Of a DNA stretch of 37,293 nt, positions 16,282 through 31,948 are shown piece after piece; the stretch's first letter is position 1; every line of letters starts with the position of its first letter. The notes below the pieces were generated by a model, which did not search any database, was not told where the DNA came from, and saw only the letters and a program-made list of their open reading frames with translations. The DNA comes from Opitutaceae bacterium. GTDB taxonomy: Bacteria; Verrucomicrobiota; Verrucomicrobiia; Opitutales; Opitutaceae. Where the stretch lies: assembly GCA_016794625.1 (NCBI GenBank), contig JAEUGY010000013.1, positions 1-37,293 of the forward strand, given 5' to 3'. Both the position numbers and the translations under genes were made by a program.

Positions 16282-16692
16282 GTGGCCCTGTTCGATTCGA
16301 TCTCCGTTACGACGATCCAGTTCCTCGTGCTGTGGGGGTTGCTGGGCCTGCTGGTAGTCTTGATCGTTCTCCGCGCTCCCACCACGATGGTGCTGGCGCG
16401 CGACAGCAAGGGTCGTCTGGAAATCTCGCGCAGCGCCCTCCACCGGGTGCTGGAATCGTGCTGCGAACAGGTTCGCGGCATCGCCTCAGCCCGCGCCTAT
16501 GTGACCCGCAAGGGCAAAACCTACCACACGGAACTGCGCCTGAAGATCCGTCCGGACGCCAAGCTGGACGCGATTCAGGGTTACCTGACGCAGGAGATCA
16601 CCGAAATCTACCACCAGAACCTCGGTTTGAAGGACATCGGCGAAATCGAGATCAAGGTCGTGGGCGTCGTTCCCAGCGACCAGACATTCTAG
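16282..16692 (+). CDS. AmaP-like membrane-anchored Asp23-domain protein
   Basis: A 136-residue protein with one N-terminal membrane helix (ISVTTIQFLVLWGLLGLLVVLIVL, about residues 6-30) and a C-terminal Asp23-like domain (ISRSALHRVLESCCEQVRGIASARAYVTRKGKTYHTELRLKIRP; VGVVPSDQTF). AmaP in Firmicutes anchors Asp23 at the membrane; the gene order here supports the same partnership. It starts with GTG at 16282. Convergent with the TonB receptor gene, with a repeat-rich gap between. Confidence 0.82.
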   Translation: MALFDSISVTTIQFLVLWGLLGLLVVLIVLRAPTTMVLARDSKGRLEISRSALHRVLESCCEQVRGIASARAYVTRKGKTYHTELRLKIRPDAKLDAIQGYLTQEITEIYHQNLGLKDIGEIEIKVVGVVPSDQTF

Positions 16693-25462: not shown

Positions 25463-26068
25463 ATGGCGACGCGTCCGTCAATGCTTCCTGTACTTCCGGC
25501 GGTATCGGAACCTCTCCCGGCTGCGACCGAACCGTCTCTTCCCCTTCGACCCACCCCTGCGGAGTTTGGCAACACCCCGCGCACCGCCATCTTGGGCAAT
25601 TCCGGCTCCGGCAAGACGTCCCTGACCCGGGCATTGGTCCGGCGGCGGCCCTTTCCCACTCTGGACCTCGATTCCGTGGTCTGGGAACCCACCCGGATCG
25701 CCGTGCGGCGTCCCGACCAGGCGATCCTGGCCGAATTGAAGGCCTTCACCGATCACCATCCCGGGTGGATCATCGAGGGATGCTACAGCGACTTGATCGA
25801 GGCCCTGCTGCCGCTCACCCCGGAACTCATCTTCCTCAACCCCGGACGGGAAACCTGCCTGCACCAGTGCCGGCAGCGGTTTCAGGAATCTCCGGGCTTC
25901 GCCGCCCGGCAGGATCAGGAACAACGGCTGGGATTCCTTCTCGATTGGGTCGCCGGCTACTACACGCGCAGCGACTCGCAATCCCTCGCCGCGCACCGGC
26001 GGTTGTTCGACGCCTACCCGGGTCCCAAAAGGGAACTGCTGGTGCCGGTGGACCTCGCACCGCACTGA
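25463..26068 (+). CDS. P-loop NTPase of the adenylate-kinase/topology-modulation (FlaR-like) type
   Basis: About 201 residues from the ATG at 25463; an ATG at 25376 is possible but would begin inside the dyad. Walker A is ILGNSGSGKTSLTRAL, then FPTLDLDSVVWEP (nucleoside-binding Asp), HPGWIIEGCYSDLIEALLPLTPELIFLNPGRETCLHQCRQRF, which closely follows the FlaR/topology modulation family. It likely phosphorylates a small substrate; no specific function is known. The first 35 residues are Pro/Leu-rich and look disordered. It is convergent with the exosortase gene. Confidence 0.82.
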   Translation: MATRPSMLPVLPAVSEPLPAATEPSLPLRPTPAEFGNTPRTAILGNSGSGKTSLTRALVRRRPFPTLDLDSVVWEPTRIAVRRPDQAILAELKAFTDHHPGWIIEGCYSDLIEALLPLTPELIFLNPGRETCLHQCRQRFQESPGFAARQDQEQRLGFLLDWVAGYYTRSDSQSLAAHRRLFDAYPGPKRELLVPVDLAPH

Positions 26069-26085
26069 CGACTTCAGGCGTCGTC
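26067..26085. terminator. Hairpin between convergent P-loop and exosortase genes
   Basis: GACGAC-TTCAGGC-GTCGTC starts within the stop codon of the P-loop gene and ends 4 bases before the exosortase stop. The 20-base gap holds nothing else. It could end both transcripts but has no T run. Confidence 0.35.
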
Positions 26086-26088
26086 GGA

Positions 26089-27546
26089 TCAAGCCCGCGG
26101 CGCGCCCGCCTCCGGTGTCACCCCGTCCTCCGGGGCCACCACGGTGACCGCCCACCACGGACCCGGCGTGGAGCGACGCAGCGCCGACCAGTACCAGGCG
26201 GAGACATCGGTCCACTCCCCTCCCCGTTCGTCGTGGAATCGTTCGCGCACGCGCCAGCCCTCCCCCGCGCGGGCCGCCCGGAATTCGCTCCAGGTGACAC
26301 CGCGATCGTCGCGCACCAAGCGCAACGGCCCCACCTCGTAACCCCGGGCCCGAAAGCAGTCGGCGGCCGGGTGCAGCTGTCGCGAGGGCTCTCGTATCCA
26401 CCTTAAAACCACCCAACGCCCGTCCTGGCGGAACACCCCGGTCGTCAGAGCGCCCGTCCCGAGCACCGCCGACAGCGGCTGCTCCCGGACCAGGCGTATC
26501 CATGGTCGGCCTTCAAACAACTCCGGCCAGCCGGGAAACACTTCGCCCGAGTTCGGGGTGAAGGCCGCGCGGCCCGGCGTCGCCAGCCAGGGTGCCGCAC
26601 CGGTCGCCGCGACGACCAGTCCAAGGGTCCAGCGTGCGGTTTTGATCCATCTCGTCGCAGCCGTCCGCCCCCCGTCCGCCGCGAGGGTCGCCCGGCCGAC
26701 CTCCGACAGGCGGCCACGGGTGAGTGTCAGCAAGCCGGCCGCCAGGACCAGCATCAGGAGGAGAGCCAGCGCAGAATGAAACCAGCCGGGCACCGTCCAT
26801 CGTCCGGTCTCCACGAAAAACAACAGTCCAACTCGCAGCGCGTTGGCGAGGATCACCGCCACGACCGCCACGCTGAGCAATCCCACTGTGCGCCCCGCCG
26901 GCAGGCGCCGCCACGCGGCCACACCCGCCGCCAGGACGAGCGAGGTCCAAAGCATGTTCAAGCCGCTGCAGGGCGCATCCACAACCACGTCGCCGCCCGC
27001 CCAACGCAGCGTCACTCCCCAACGCTCCACCGGCACGCCCCCGACCGCCACCACATGCCGGCCGAGCTCGGCCGCGACGACTCGCAGGGGATAACCGAGG
27101 TAGAACTGGAGCGACGTGGTCACGGGCAGCGAAAGCGCGAGGAGCGCGCCCCGGGCCGTCGATCCGGCCCCGTGTCCCAGCAGGATCGCCAACGCCACGA
27201 CGAGCAAAAGCGCCCGCGCCAACATCGGAATTTGCTCCGCCAACACGAACCCGGCCGCCAGGACTCCCGCGGCGGCAAGCGCCGCCGGGGCTGGAAGTTG
27301 CTCGCGCCACGTCTTCGCCGGAGTGGTGACCAGCGCCAGCGTCAATGCCACCAACCCAAGGGGCTCGTCTCCGCCATCGTGCAAGCGACGTCCATACCAG
27401 AACAGGACCGGCAGGTGCGCGAGCAGGGTCGCGGCGGCAAACACCGCGCGCGAGGACGCCACCGGCGCAAACCATCGGGCGGGCCGAACCGGGCCCGTTC
27501 CCTCGCCGGCGGGCGGTCGCAGGACCGTCTCGACTCCGGTTGCCAT
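26089..27546 (-). CDS. Exosortase with C-terminal EpsI-like extension
   Basis: About 485 residues. Several N-terminal membrane helices lead to the exosortase core with all three catalytic residues: Cys193 in VVDAPCSGLNMLW, Arg238 in LANALRVGLLFF, His257 in GWFHSALALLL. Exosortases cut and process PEP-CTERM proteins at the inner membrane. After the core, a helix (WTLGLVVAATGAAPWLA) and a soluble domain (about 330-485) include SRQLHPAADCFRARGYEVGPL, like the H-x-x-x-x-C-x-x-x-G-(Y/W) region of EpsI/DUF3485 partners. The ATG at 27546 is 2 bases after the VIT/VWA stop; an upstream GTG at 27603 would overlap that gene. Coupled translation with its likely single substrate suggests a dedicated system. 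Confidence 0.9.
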   Translation of the reverse strand: MATGVETVLRPPAGEGTGPVRPARWFAPVASSRAVFAAATLLAHLPVLFWYGRRLHDGGDEPLGLVALTLALVTTPAKTWREQLPAPAALAAAGVLAAGFVLAEQIPMLARALLLVVALAILLGHGAGSTARGALLALSLPVTTSLQFYLGYPLRVVAAELGRHVVAVGGVPVERWGVTLRWAGGDVVVDAPCSGLNMLWTSLVLAAGVAAWRRLPAGRTVGLLSVAVVAVILANALRVGLLFFVETGRWTVPGWFHSALALLLMLVLAAGLLTLTRGRLSEVGRATLAADGGRTAATRWIKTARWTLGLVVAATGAAPWLATPGRAAFTPNSGEVFPGWPELFEGRPWIRLVREQPLSAVLGTGALTTGVFRQDGRWVVLRWIREPSRQLHPAADCFRARGYEVGPLRLVRDDRGVTWSEFRAARAGEGWRVRERFHDERGGEWTDVSAWYWSALRRSTPGPWWAVTVVAPEDGVTPEAGAPRA

Positions 27547-27548
27547 GG

Positions 27549-29582
27549 TCAGCCCGTCGTCGCCGGCACCCGGTCCTTTCGACACTGGCGCCAGGTCCTC
27601 CACAGGACCGCGAGCGCGGCCACGCCCAGCAACCCGACGGTTTCAGGCTCCGGCGTGGTCGGCACGTCCTCTCCCATCGTCAGCCCCTGCGGCGTTTGCG
27701 CCGGCTGACGCACGGTGTCCGCCGGCGCCGCTGCCACCCGGGGCGTGGTGTCCACCGCGACGAACGAGGTGAAGCGGGTCAGCAGATTGGCCTGCAGTCC
27801 CAGGTCAATGATCTCCCGCCGGCGTCGCTCGCGGTCCGACCCGAGCGCATGCAGGTCGTCGAGCACCGCAAGTTTCTCCCGCGCCCAAAGCCGTGCCAGC
27901 AGGCCGCGCCCGCCGAGATCCACGGCGTGGTCAAGGTCGATCTCGTGTCGCCAAGGACCCGCCCCCGTCTGGCCCTCGACCGCAATGCGGCCCTTCGCCC
28001 CGAGGGTCGCCTTGCCCACCCAGGTGAGGGGACGCAGGGCGAGCACATCCGGCGCCGCCTCGGGCAGGACGTCCCTCGCCCCGAGCGCCCCCAGATCGGC
28101 CCGGACGCGGGTGAGCACGGGTGACTCGATCAGCGCCCGGAAACGCGCCGCCTCACGGCCGGCTGCCGAGCCTTGGTCGATCACCGCCGGTTCGGACCGG
28201 CCGGCTCTCGCCAGGCGCTCGATCAGCTCACGGTTGACCGAGGACCCGATGCCAAAGGCAAAGAGGCTGGCCTCGCCGGTGCGGGACGCCACCAGCGCAT
28301 ACGCCTCCGCCTCGAGGTCGATGTATCCGTCGGTCACTACCACAAGGCTGCGCGCCACACCGGCGCGAACCGGCAGCGACAGCGCTCGCTCCAGGGCCGA
28401 CAGGAGCTCGGTGCCTCCCCCACCCGACTGGCGCGAGAGCAGGGCCAGCGCCGCCGCCGTCGTCTCCGGGGTCGCGGCGAGCGGTTCGGGCGAGAGCAGG
28501 CGGCTGTCCCCGGAAAAGAGCAGGACGTTGAAGCTGTCCCCGGTTCGCAGGCCCTTGAACAAATCCTCGAGCAGGGTTTTCGCCGTTTGCAGCGGAAATC
28601 CGTGCATGGAGCCCGAGACGTCCACGACAAACACATAATCGCGCGGCGGGATGTTCGCGCGCGTCACGCGGGCCGGCGGCTGCACGGTGAGCAGGAAGTA
28701 CCGTTCCCCTTTCCAATCATCGACGAGCAGGCCCGCCTCCAGGGATTCGCCCAGCGTGCGGTAGCGGAGGATGAAGTCCCGGTTGAGCACGGGTCCCATC
28801 GTGCCGTCGAGTTCGATCCGGGCCCGACGGGTCTCGCGCGCCGCGGCGATCCGGTGGGTCGCGCACTCGATCGCTCCCAGGGGCAGCGCAGAAACGACGT
28901 CGACGGTCAGGGTGCAGACGGGCTCCTCCGCGAGAGACCCTTCCGCCCGCAGCGGCGGCTGCGGAATCGCGGAGGATTCCGTCTCCGCGCCCGTGTGACG
29001 CGAGTACCGCGGACCGACGACGGTGGGGAAGACCCACTCCCACGCGCCGTCGACGGCGAGGATGCGCTCGGTGTAGGCCAGCTCCACCGTCACGGTTTCT
29101 CCGGGCTGAATGTTGGCCACGCTCATTTCGAAAACATTGCTGCGGTGCGCTTCGAGCAGCGACGCGGCCTGTCCCGCCTTGCGCGCGGCGTCGTAGGTCT
29201 TGCGCGCCTCGGTCTTTTCGCGGAGCTGGGCCTCAACCCGTCGGCCACCGACCGTCATGGTGAGCGCGTGCACCGCGGCGCGGGTCGACCCGGGAAACAC
29301 ATAACGCGCCTCCAGCGGCCGGCTCCCGTCGTTGCTGTAGGTCTGGCTGACGCGCACCTCGGCCAGCACTCCGGTGAGCAACGCCTGCACACGCGTGCTC
29401 TTCAACGGAAACGCATCGCGCCCGGCCGCCGCACCCAGGACTTCAAAATAGGGCGCGGTGGACGGCAGCGTCTCCGCTCCGACGCGTCCCTGCCACAGCA
29501 GGAGGAACACGCCGGCGGCGCCGAGCCACCACCGGAAAATGCAACGCACCGCGGCCACCGCCGGGGTCTCTTTTTTGTCCAT
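27549..29582 (-). CDS. VIT/VWA surface protein with PEP-CTERM sorting tail
   Basis: A 677-residue exported protein. Signal segment: FRWWLGAAGVFLLLWQGRVGA. VIT domain (about 45-170): VLAEVRVSQTYSNDGSRPLEARYVFPGS, KTYDAARKAGQAASLLEAHRSNVFEMSVANIQPGETVTVEL. VWA domain (about 315-480) with the MIDAS motif DVSGSMHG (first Asp at 321) and LVVVTDGYIDLEAEAY. The last 34 residues are a PEP-CTERM signal: PEP, a hydrophobic helix (VGLLGVAALAVLW) and a basic end (RTWRQCRKDR). It should be cut by the exosortase encoded 2 bases downstream. The four TTCAY boxes 22-60 bases before its start suggest control by the adjacent CreB-like regulator. The VIT and VWA pair suggests metal-dependent adhesion or protein binding. 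Confidence 0.93.
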   Translation of the reverse strand: MDKKETPAVAAVRCIFRWWLGAAGVFLLLWQGRVGAETLPSTAPYFEVLGAAAGRDAFPLKSTRVQALLTGVLAEVRVSQTYSNDGSRPLEARYVFPGSTRAAVHALTMTVGGRRVEAQLREKTEARKTYDAARKAGQAASLLEAHRSNVFEMSVANIQPGETVTVELAYTERILAVDGAWEWVFPTVVGPRYSRHTGAETESSAIPQPPLRAEGSLAEEPVCTLTVDVVSALPLGAIECATHRIAAARETRRARIELDGTMGPVLNRDFILRYRTLGESLEAGLLVDDWKGERYFLLTVQPPARVTRANIPPRDYVFVVDVSGSMHGFPLQTAKTLLEDLFKGLRTGDSFNVLLFSGDSRLLSPEPLAATPETTAAALALLSRQSGGGGTELLSALERALSLPVRAGVARSLVVVTDGYIDLEAEAYALVASRTGEASLFAFGIGSSVNRELIERLARAGRSEPAVIDQGSAAGREAARFRALIESPVLTRVRADLGALGARDVLPEAAPDVLALRPLTWVGKATLGAKGRIAVEGQTGAGPWRHEIDLDHAVDLGGRGLLARLWAREKLAVLDDLHALGSDRERRRREIIDLGLQANLLTRFTSFVAVDTTPRVAAAPADTVRQPAQTPQGLTMGEDVPTTPEPETVGLLGVAALAVLWRTWRQCRKDRVPATTG

Positions 29583-29603
29583 GCCGCATCCTCGCAGACC
29601 ACG

Positions 29604-29641
29604 ATGAAGTCAGCGTGAAACCGGAATGAAATCGCGATGAA
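29604..29641 (-). promoter_or_regulatory. Predicted CreB-binding site: four TTCAY boxes spaced 11 bases
   Basis: Read on the coding (minus) strand, TTCAT (29637-29641), TTCAT (29626-29630), TTCAC (29615-29619) and TTCAT (29604-29608) follow one another with exactly six bases between each. E. coli CreB binds the cre tag TTCAC-N6-TTCAC, the same pentamer and spacing. The array ends 22 bases before the VIT/VWA ATG, and creB/creC-like genes lie immediately upstream. Repeats on one helix face are usual for OmpR-family activators. The short distance to the ATG means the transcript would have a very short leader if the boxes sit in front of a -10. Confidence 0.7.
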
Positions 29642-29650
29642 CTCGGGGTA

Positions 29651-29673
29651 AGTGTCATCTCCGGGATGACACT
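29651..29673. promoter_or_regulatory. 23-base palindrome AGTGTCATC-N5-GATGACACT, copy 2
   Basis: Nine-base perfect arms around TCCGG, the same arms as at 19102-19124. It lies 33 bases after the CreC-like stop codon and 69 bases before the VIT/VWA start, just beyond the four TTCAY boxes. On the coding strand it is not followed by a T run. An operator shared with the TonB receptor gene, or a REP-like hairpin, are both possible. Confidence 0.6.
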
Positions 29674-29705
29674 GGGGCGGGCGCGCGGCAGTCAAGGTGC
29701 GACGG

Positions 29706-31157
29706 TCAAACCGGCGCGCGATGGATCGGGATGCGCATCTCGGCGCGCACGCCGCCTTCCGCACGGTTGGTCACGGAGATTTCGCCGTCGTGCAGGTTCG
29801 CAATCTCGCGCACGAGACTCAGACCCAGTCCGGTGCTCTTCACTCCCGTGCCCGGACGCGGCAGCGAATAAAACCGTTCGAAGATGCGCGCCTGCGCGTA
29901 GTCCGGAATGCCCGTTCCCGTGTCGTCCACCGTGATCCGCGCGCCGCCGTCGGGGCTGGAGCTGGTTCTCACCACCACCGTTCCGCCGGCCGGGGTGAAG
30001 GCGAGGGCGTTCTGCACGAGATTGGACACGGCCTGAGCCAGCAAGGCGGCATCGCCCCGGCAGGCCGTTGGCGCCGAGGTGTCCAGCGTGAGAGACACGC
30101 GACCGACCTGCGCCGCCGGCTGCGCGGCATCCACCACTTCGCGGGCCACCTGGGCCAGATCCACCGCCTTGAAGTCCGGCCGCGCCTTGCGCGCTTCGAG
30201 CGAGGCGAGCTGAAGGAGCAGGTCGACCACCCGTTGAATGCGACCGGCCTCGGCCCGGATGTTCTCAATGAAGCGAACCCGCACCTCGTCCGGAGGGTTC
30301 TCCACCAGGATCTCCGCCGCGCCGCGGATGGCGGAGAGGGGCGATTTGATTTCGTGCGTCAGCGTCTGGACGTAACGTTCGACATAGGCCTTTCCCTCGA
30401 GCGCCGCGCGCATCTCCTCGAAGGCCTGGCGCAACTCTCCGACCTCGCGGCCCGCCAGTCGCGGCAACTCGGCCGGGCGGCCGTCGCGCACCGCGCGCGC
30501 GTAGGCGGTGAGGCGGGCGACGGGCGTCGCAATCCAGATGGAAAAGGCCACGCCGACCATGATGATCAGGCCGCCGCCGGCCAGGCCCGCAAGCATCACC
30601 CGGCGGCGGGCCGCGTTGACGAGGTCATTGATGCTGGCCGTGGGTTTGCCAATCGACACCACTCCGAGAATCCGGTCCGTCGAAACGGATCGCACTGGCG
30701 CGGCGACATACAAGACGACGCTTTCCACATTGTCCGGCTCCGTGCGTGTGGTGCGTGCTCCGTACTTTCCCTTCAAGGAGCGGGCCACATCCATCCATTG
30801 GGAATAGTCCTGCCCTTCATCCGACGGCAAAATCGAGTCGTAGAGGACGATGCCACGCTCATCCGTCACATACACCCGCAGATCAACCCGGTCCTTGGTC
30901 AGGCTGAAAATGCGGGCGTAAAACCGGCGGGCGAAGGCACTGCGGAACAGCTGGTTCACCTTGGAGGCGTCGATCGGGCCGTCGCCCACGTCGCGCTCGA
31001 TCACCGTCGCGAGCAGATTCACCGTGTCGACCAGCGACTCCTCCATCGACTCGAGGTACCGGGGCCGGAGTTCAGCGACGCTGCGGTTGACGAGGTAATA
31101 AAACCCGCCGCCCACGATCAGCAGATAGACCAGGAGGATGCGGGTGCGGATGGTCAT
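29706..31157 (-). CDS. CreC-like sensor histidine kinase
   Basis: About 483 residues, close in layout to E. coli CreC. Membrane helix 1 (ILLVYLLIVGGGFYYLV), a periplasmic sensor with YVTDERGIVLYDS, GQDYSQWMDVARSLKGKYGARTTR and VVLYVAAPV ... ILGVVSIGKP, membrane helix 2 (VMLAGLAGGGLIIMVGVAFSIWIA), a HAMP-like part, HisKA with LTHEIKSPLSAIRGAAEI (H268), then ATPase boxes NLVQNALAFTP, DDTGTGIPD and STGLGLSLV. These sensor strings are CreC signatures, not general kinase features. The ATG overlaps the response-regulator stop (ATGA). It should phosphorylate the CreB-like regulator; in E. coli CreBC responds to metabolic state, and the signal here is unknown. Confidence 0.93.
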   Translation of the reverse strand: MTIRTRILLVYLLIVGGGFYYLVNRSVAELRPRYLESMEESLVDTVNLLATVIERDVGDGPIDASKVNQLFRSAFARRFYARIFSLTKDRVDLRVYVTDERGIVLYDSILPSDEGQDYSQWMDVARSLKGKYGARTTRTEPDNVESVVLYVAAPVRSVSTDRILGVVSIGKPTASINDLVNAARRRVMLAGLAGGGLIIMVGVAFSIWIATPVARLTAYARAVRDGRPAELPRLAGREVGELRQAFEEMRAALEGKAYVERYVQTLTHEIKSPLSAIRGAAEILVENPPDEVRVRFIENIRAEAGRIQRVVDLLLQLASLEARKARPDFKAVDLAQVAREVVDAAQPAAQVGRVSLTLDTSAPTACRGDAALLAQAVSNLVQNALAFTPAGGTVVVRTSSSPDGGARITVDDTGTGIPDYAQARIFERFYSLPRPGTGVKSTGLGLSLVREIANLHDGEISVTNRAEGGVRAEMRIPIHRAPV

Positions 31158-31948
31158 GGCACCCGCAAGGAGTAGCCCAACCCGCGGTGGGTCTGGATGG
31201 GTTCGCCCAGCGGGGTGATGCCGCGCAGTTTCGCCCGCAGCATCTTGATGTGGGCATCGACCGTGCGGTCGAGGCTCGCGCCCGGATCCTCCCACGCCTG
31301 GGTCATGAGTTCGTCGCGCGAGAACACTTTGCCCGGCCGCCCAAGCAGCGTGCGCAGCAGACGATACTCATACCGCGTCAACTCGAGACGCGTACCGCCG
31401 TAGCGGATTTCGCACCGCTCTTCGTCGAGGACAAATCCGGTGGCGCCCTCGCGTCGCTCCGCGCCGGGCCGCGGTGGAGTCAGGGGCGGAGCGGCATCAC
31501 CGGCGACCACAGGTGTCGCCGCGACAGGTGGGCTCGCCGGGGGTGCGGACCACGTCGGCGGCATCGCTCCGGGACCGGTCCCCGGGGCGGGCCGGGCGCG
31601 GCGCAGGATGGCTTTGACCCGGGCGGTGACCTCGCGGGGACTGAAGGGCTTGGTCACGTAGTCGTCCGCCCCAAGCTCAAGGCCGAGGACGCGGTCGAGT
31701 TCGTCCGCGCGCGCAGTGAGAAAGAGGATCGGGACGCTGCTGAGCGTGCGGATGCGTTTGCACCACTCCAGTCCGCTGCCATCGGGCAGGCCGATGTCGA
31801 GGATGACCAGCGCCACGTCGCTCGACTGGATCGCCGCCAGCCCCTCGCCTCCGGTCGTGCGCCACTCCGGCTGAAAGCCCTCGGTGCGCAGGGCGTAAAC
31901 GAGCGTGTCGGCAATGGCCGGCTCGTCTTCGATCAGGAGGATGCGCAT
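31154..31948 (-). CDS. CreB-like OmpR-family response regulator
   Basis: A 264-residue regulator. The receiver domain has EDEPAIADTLVYALRTEGF, phosphoacceptor D51 in VILDIGLPDGSGLEWCKRI, ILFLTARADELDRVLGLELGADDYVTKPFSPREV, close to E. coli CreB. The winged-helix domain has LTRYEYRLLRTLLGRPGKVFSRDELMTQAWEDPGASLDRTVDAHIKMLRAKLRGI and THRGLGYSLR, also CreB-like. Between them is an unusual Pro/Ala/Gly linker of about 50 residues (about 118-170). It is followed with a 4-base overlap by the CreC-like kinase, and lies 18 bases after prmA. Its predicted target is the TTCAY array before the VIT/VWA gene. Confidence 0.94.
   Translation of the reverse strand: MRILLIEDEPAIADTLVYALRTEGFQPEWRTTGGEGLAAIQSSDVALVILDIGLPDGSGLEWCKRIRTLSSVPILFLTARADELDRVLGLELGADDYVTKPFSPREVTARVKAILRRARPAPGTGPGAMPPTWSAPPASPPVAATPVVAGDAAPPLTPPRPGAERREGATGFVLDEERCEIRYGGTRLELTRYEYRLLRTLLGRPGKVFSRDELMTQAWEDPGASLDRTVDAHIKMLRAKLRGITPLGEPIQTHRGLGYSLRVP

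Follow-up and report, generated by a model that had tools for sequence, protein, structure and literature searches.

Phased CreB-type half-sites before a VIT/VWA and exosortase gene pair in an Opitutaceae bacterium: a candidate Cre operator in Verrucomicrobiota

Which regulator, if any, reads the short word repeated four times between a creBC-type gene pair and a VIT/VWA gene in an Opitutaceae bacterium (contig JAEUGY010000013.1)? In the stretch of DNA analysed (37,293 nucleotides, here called the window), direct reading, a pattern search with shuffles and conservation before orthologs identified a four-box CreB-type TTCAY array on the minus strand at 29604..29641. Its boxes are TTCAT (29641-29637), TTCAT (29630-29626), TTCAC (29619-29615) and TTCAT (29608-29604), and the minus strand from 29641 to 29604 reads TTCAT-CGCGAT-TTCAT-TCCGGT-TTCAC-GCTGAC-TTCAT, with gaps of exactly six bases and a phase of 11 bp. 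The ATG of the VIT/VWA gene, at 29582, follows 21 bp after the end of the last box. A sequence-only reading had likened the boxes to the E. coli cre tag in spacing, orientation and word. The four boxes, their exact N6 gaps and their single orientation on the coding strand bear out the first two, and the word agrees once TTCAY is accepted. With three TTCAT and one TTCAC, the window array does not contain the strict tag TTCAC-N6-TTCAC, and lacking strict TTCAC in both halves it is classed as a variant of the Cre tag. A Stenotrophomonas tag, TTCAC-N6-TTCAA, also departs from the strict word (excerpts of PMC4689548).

Upstream of the VIT/VWA gene, creB, creC and the array follow one another on one strand. 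The response regulator gene creB (31154..31948, minus) scores 309 bits against NF008296 (cut-off 273) and its product has 47% identity to E. coli CreB, while the sensor kinase gene creC (29706..31157, minus), which adjoins the array, scores 581 bits against NF008312 (cut-off 356); the proposed presence of a cognate-type regulator immediately upstream is confirmed by both scores. The proposed target (27549..29582, minus) encodes a protein of 677 aa with Pfam matches to VIT (117 bits) and VWA_3 (73 bits) and a PEP-CTERM-like C-terminus that scores 19.9 bits, just under the cut-off of 20.7; residues P644, E645, P646 and T648 are invariant in eight aligned orthologs. The second gene of the putative operon (26089..27546, minus) encodes an exosortase, with 77 bits against Pfam Exosortase_EpsH (cut-off 25.7) and 42.5 bits against TIGR04178 (cut-off 23), both in keeping with the EpsH family. 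XrtQ was its best named type, at 138.7 bits below the cut-off of 270. The frame at 25478-26503 overlaps the end of the exosortase gene.

Within the window, three TTCAYN6TTCAY pairs were found, all inside the array, against 0.13 expected, and none of 100 shuffles reached three. The genome-wide motif scan proposed in the sequence-only reading gave a divided answer: pairs occurred at background, the outcome which that reading had named as counting against it, whereas arrays of at least three boxes stood above background. The 6.45-Mb genome holds 36 TTCAY-N6-TTCAY pairs against about 47 per spacing, a background taken from 1231 matches over 26 spacings. A reversed-pattern control (1 match against 36 for the pair) is misleading for a TTCAY scan because TTCAY far outnumbers its reverse (1231 against 234). 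With pairs at background, information comes only from arrays of at least three boxes, or from boxes combined with a downstream -10. From the density of TTCAY we estimate that about 0.09 three-box and 0.0002 four-box arrays would arise per genome by chance; the window's own genome has four three-box arrays in addition to the four-box array of the window, five places altogether. Among 121 spacing combinations (1 to 11) in the same genome, 6 of the 49 three-word matches fell at N6/N6, and the pair plus a -10 element matched seven times in the whole genome, at the five arrays and at two other places. Across 57 genomes, own included, 47 distinct N6/N6 arrays of at least three boxes were recovered, spread over 21 genomes, as against three arrays in three genomes for an N5/N5 control. 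Many of the three-word matches outside N6/N6 in the own genome are seven-base repeats. Such repeats, of the CTTCGCC/CTTCACT type (type CTTCACTCTTCGCCCTTCAC), are scattered through this genome (for example at G000:C28:14605, C38:35448, C93:199546 and C127:12827) and are the source of many other TTCAC clusters.

The 47 arrays were aligned on their last box and split into two classes after the sequences had been viewed. Class B (13 of the 47) is defined by an ATGAA or ATGGAA that lies no more than 14 bases upstream and keeps the 11-bp register; class A comprises the remaining 34 arrays, which lack this inverted element and include that of the window. Counted from the last box, class A has A at +12 in 31 of 34 arrays and T at +16 in 30 of 34, the NAnnnT form of a -10 element, which had played no part in array selection. 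The proposed -10 element of the window is GAGGAT (29588..29593, minus; +11..+16), at the position conserved across the 34 arrays. By an automatic rule, 20 of the 34 have an ATG that opens a reading frame 21-25 bases beyond the last box. In at least three more arrays (L122, L126, L144) the rule stops at an ATG that comes too soon or is out of frame, and direct reading of these puts the ATG at 22-23 bases. All 20 found by the rule carry NAnnnT, and a GGAG, GAGG or AGGA core precedes the ATG in only two of them; in others of class A the ATG comes 28-36 bases after the last box, or no ATG fits. With the -10 at a fixed place, transcription would start at or beside the ATG and many of the messages are probably leaderless. 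In the window itself AGGA overlaps the proposed -10, so that a ribosome site and a short leader may be present. A scan of 29500-29800 found no sigma-70 consensus promoter, which fits an array standing in place of the -35 without proving it.

Class B arrays have the layout ATGAA-N6-(TTCAY-N6)2-TTCAY, with the -10 position as in class A. Examples are G000:C33:12374-12400 and 16284-16310 (L145), L112, L113, L119, L120, L133, L139, L140, L149 and L152; the class B array of G044 lies in AT-rich sequence and may be due to chance. Pfam searches with four genes behind class B arrays returned YceI, NUDIX, sulfatase and glycosyltransferase. Because class B puts the same word before other genes, TTCAY is not exclusive to class A targets, and the regulator of class B arrays may be one other than CreB.

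The proposal that the boxes would be conserved before orthologous VIT/VWA genes was upheld. Orthologs with at least 43% identity were present in nine of the 57 genomes, window included, and in eight of them three to four exact boxes stand directly upstream; the ninth (G021) has the degenerate series TTCAC, TTCCA, TTCCC, TTCAC, TTCTC, which keeps the 11-bp register exactly. CreC is over the cut-off in each of the nine genomes, and an exosortase match adjoins the VIT/VWA gene in all eight other orthologous loci. The array is found with the VIT/VWA gene even in G011, G014 and G018, where creC lies far off or on a different contig; in G016 creC and the VIT/VWA gene are on short separate contigs. 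VIT/VWA genes account for 8 of the 34 class A arrays. The family found most often behind the arrays is that of CreD (10 of 34, by tblastn with E. coli CreD), with five homologs of full length and five that correspond to the C-terminal part only; Pfam confirmed the identity of two of these array-linked genes. One of the short forms is encoded in the own genome, where three TTCAY boxes (C5:8020) precede a CreD-family gene (Pfam 174 bits). The proteins with only the C-terminal part are about 225-240 aa long (L144:4318-4998 in contig C5 of the own genome, L118, L147, L151 and L153). DUF2975-like genes follow six class A arrays, where one call is over the Pfam cut-off, two are below it and three rest on likeness of the translations only, and DUF3142 genes follow two. 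The remaining eight are mixed or doubtful (L114, L116, L130, L132, L136, L138, L142, L150), L114 and L116 being short frames directly behind creC.

Class A arrays were present in all 15 of the 57 genomes with CreC over the curated cut-off and in 3 of the 42 others (G008, G027 and G035; Fisher p 4e-11, kinship ignored). The CreC of G035 is just under the cut-off, at 335 against 356 bits. We then used a phylum set of 387 genomes, overlapping the 57, with a pattern of a three-box array plus -10 and with CreC accepted at E up to 1e-60. The pattern occurred in 41 genomes, CreC in 62 and both in 27, that is, in 27 of 62 CreC-positive against 14 of 325 CreC-negative genomes (odds ratio 17, p 9e-15, again with kinship ignored), and this strict pattern was missing from 35 of the 62 CreC-positive genomes. 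Among the 14 of 41 array genomes without CreC, which include G008, eight share one near-identical site in one genus. This site starts TTCACTTCACTTTCATCCGTA (G075, G081, G084, G087, G116, G159, G265 and G293; no CreC at E up to 1e-60). Of the other CreC-less genomes, G028 and G186 carry the inverted element at their arrays (in G186 before one array), and the arrays of G250 and G253 look like simple sequence. A four-box array also precedes a DUF2975-like gene at G008:C1:1006309-1006346, in a member of the window's genus that has no CreC over the cut-off, and a five-box array was seen in a distant genome without CreC (G314:C21, L166); these two could be relics or, alternatively, sites of another regulator.

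A CreC-centred test chose loci independently of the motif, taking 41 stretches from 30 bp before to 400 bp after the creC stop. N6 pairs were found in 15 of the 41, nine of these 15 from near relatives, and other spacings from 0 to 20 gave 0-2 loci, except 17, which is the next register of N6 boxes. The remaining 26 loci had no N6 pair between these limits; in this count two of the 41 loci have incomplete downstream sequence, and the script missed an array of G099 just behind its CreC match.

A wider set was drawn from named genomes, in which the VIT/VWA protein has at least 400 relatives; of the best 80, 77, from several phyla, had 450 bp of upstream sequence. The N6 pair was present upstream on the coding strand in 27 of the 77 and on the other strand in one; spacings from 0 to 20 otherwise gave 0-3 loci, except 17 (10 loci, the next register). 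The tag went with an exosortase match: it is present at 25 of the 28 loci that have such a match and at 2 of the 49 that lack one (p 9e-15). The 27 tagged loci are partly dependent, with 12 titled Variovorax and with L197 apparently on the same contig as G018. By title they also include nine records of Rhodoferax, Pseudorhodoferax, Ottowia, Xenophilus, Ramlibacter and unnamed Comamonadaceae, together with one other betaproteobacterium, Moraxellaceae, a further gammaproteobacterium, Desulfobacteraceae and one more Verrucomicrobiota record. A CreC homolog was within the fetched stretch in 13 of the 27; L270, a VIT locus with CreB and CreC nearby, had no tag upstream. Because the boxes of the wider set mostly number two (20 of the 27 tagged loci) and apparently lie farther from the start codon, tight coupling to the -10 and ATG is a trait of the window's family and not of the whole set.

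The likely reader of the boxes was approached through a 17-residue stretch of CreB that we take to be the recognition helix. In this region the CreB of the window agrees with E. coli CreB at 14 of the 17 positions, and seven CreB proteins encoded at further VIT loci do so at 11-15. Agreement is lower for E. coli ArcA (7) and for two regulators close to class B arrays (5 and 6). In E. coli, the tag TTCACCGTCACTTCAC stands 61 bp upstream of the creD ATG. Together with the ten arrays before CreD homologs, the conserved region sustains the earlier proposal that the Cre code extends across phyla, and a recognition code common to Verrucomicrobiota and Proteobacteria is well supported by these sequence comparisons.

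At a probability of roughly 0.85, we interpret the array as a CreB operator and the activating promoter part of a VIT/VWA-exosortase operon, with binding, activation and the operon deduced from sequence. CreC would sense an envelope or cell-wall signal and phosphorylate CreB, and CreB-P would bind the TTCAY half-sites head-to-tail, with one half-site for each turn of the helix and probably in the form of two tandem dimers. The usual place of the -35 would lie between the last two boxes, as in class II activation of the PhoB type, and RNA polymerase could thereby be recruited to the weak NAnnnT -10 ten bases downstream, with transcription beginning at the ATG or within a few bases of it. The VIT/VWA protein would be exported and its PEP-CTERM-like tail processed by the exosortase of the same operon. 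In excerpts of the cited papers, TTCACN6TTCAC in front of creD is described as a critical tag for CreB/BlrA (PMC4689548), BlrA induction depended on it (PMC3660660), and in Pseudomonas aeruginosa the loss of the cell-wall enzyme PBP4 activates CreBC and drives creD, with a link to the beta-lactam response (PMC2654508). From PBP4-loss activation and the critical tag, the VIT/VWA-exosortase operon would be expected to be an envelope-stress output. Activation by CreB is not universal, because creD of Stenotrophomonas rises 3.8-fold upon creBC inactivation (excerpts of PMC4689548), and activation rather than repression is here the presumed mode.

A different response regulator of the OmpR family in this organism might instead read the TTCAY array, with the adjacency of creBC incidental. 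Such a regulator would fit the 13 of 47 arrays of class B, where the same word precedes genes of other families and where two arrays lie near other response regulators, as well as the four-box array of G008 in a genome with no CreC over the cut-off. We nevertheless consider it unlikely, given that the array accompanies CreC in 15 of 15 genomes, that the tag lies right behind creC in 15 of 41 CreC loci, that CreD is the common target, and that the two other regulators examined differ in the recognition-helix region. The layout of the array is also reminiscent of operators of CarH/LitR-type repressors, which in the case of CarH consist of three or four tandem 11-bp direct repeats including or overlapping the -35 or -10 (excerpts of PMC9304148). 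The CarH repeat, however, is nnnnTnnACAn (same excerpts), as opposed to TTCAYNNNNNN in the window, and a CarH operator was rejected on this word; with the co-occurrence of the array with CreC and CreD also against it, a repressor of this type is very improbable. Repetition by chance, or an artefact of coding or simple sequence, could draw on the background frequency of pairs genome-wide and on the seven-base repeats that yield other TTCAC clusters, yet the three-box N6 arrays are far above both the N5 control and the density estimate and are tied to orthologous genes and to the -10 element. A chance or tandem-repeat origin was rejected by these conservation tests, and we regard it as scarcely credible.

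As a CreB operator, the array has its closest counterpart in the cre/blr-tag regulon (CreBC in E. coli, Pseudomonas aeruginosa and Stenotrophomonas; BlrAB in Aeromonas), with which it shares CreB and CreC over curated cut-offs, TTCAC/T half-sites at six-base spacing, creD-family targets and a tag often right behind creC. It differs in its occurrence in Verrucomicrobiota, in three to four boxes as opposed to two (mostly TTCAT in the window), in the fixed link to the -10 and often to the start codon, in a VIT/VWA-exosortase operon as target, and in the presence of only the C-terminal part of CreD in 5 of the 10 genomes with a CreD target. CreBC has been described in a few Gammaproteobacteria (excerpts of PMC4689548). 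The tag is thus already known; the VIT/VWA-exosortase target and the array layout were not found in print, nor was an exosortase together with CreB or CreC, in the library searched, which covers only a minority of subscription papers. We lean towards the view that CreBC controls VIT/VWA proteins and their own exosortases in at least two phyla, and that in the window's family it does so via three to four phased half-sites fixed to the -10 and the start codon, which would make most Cre-regulon messages there leaderless. If the same DNA code holds in Verrucomicrobiota, a core Cre regulon could be studied outside pathogens, and VIT/VWA-type exosortase systems would gain a named regulator and a likely signal, through which their function becomes testable.

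Two further systems resemble parts of the locus. In PhoB-type promoters, 11-bp repeats stand in tandem some 10 bases upstream of the -10. The window array is similar in having direct repeats one helical turn apart that would replace the -35, and differs in its half-site word and in its proposed regulator, CreB and not PhoB. In the proteobacterial dedicated sortase system (kinase TIGR03785, regulator TIGR03787, target TIGR03788), a two-component pair adjoins a VIT/VWA protein and a sorting enzyme, the gene order also seen here. In contrast to that system, the enzyme of the window is an exosortase and the regulators are CreBC, and the three dedicated models score far below their cut-offs (TIGR03788 398 against 552 bits, TIGR03785 130 against 612, TIGR03787 124 against 336).

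Between creC and the array, a perfect 9-bp hairpin, AGTGTCATC-CCGGA-GATGACACT, lies at 29651..29673 (minus), with a predicted fold of -12.4 kcal/mol (z -3.3). It is without a T run and was not called a terminator in a consensus scan, and the longer RNA fold of the intergenic region is ordinary (z -0.55). As a conserved part of the locus the hairpin is unsupported, with stems of only 6-8 bp in the 180 bp upstream of five other arrays. One of these five stems, of 6 bp in G002, is at a similar distance from its array as the hairpin in the window.
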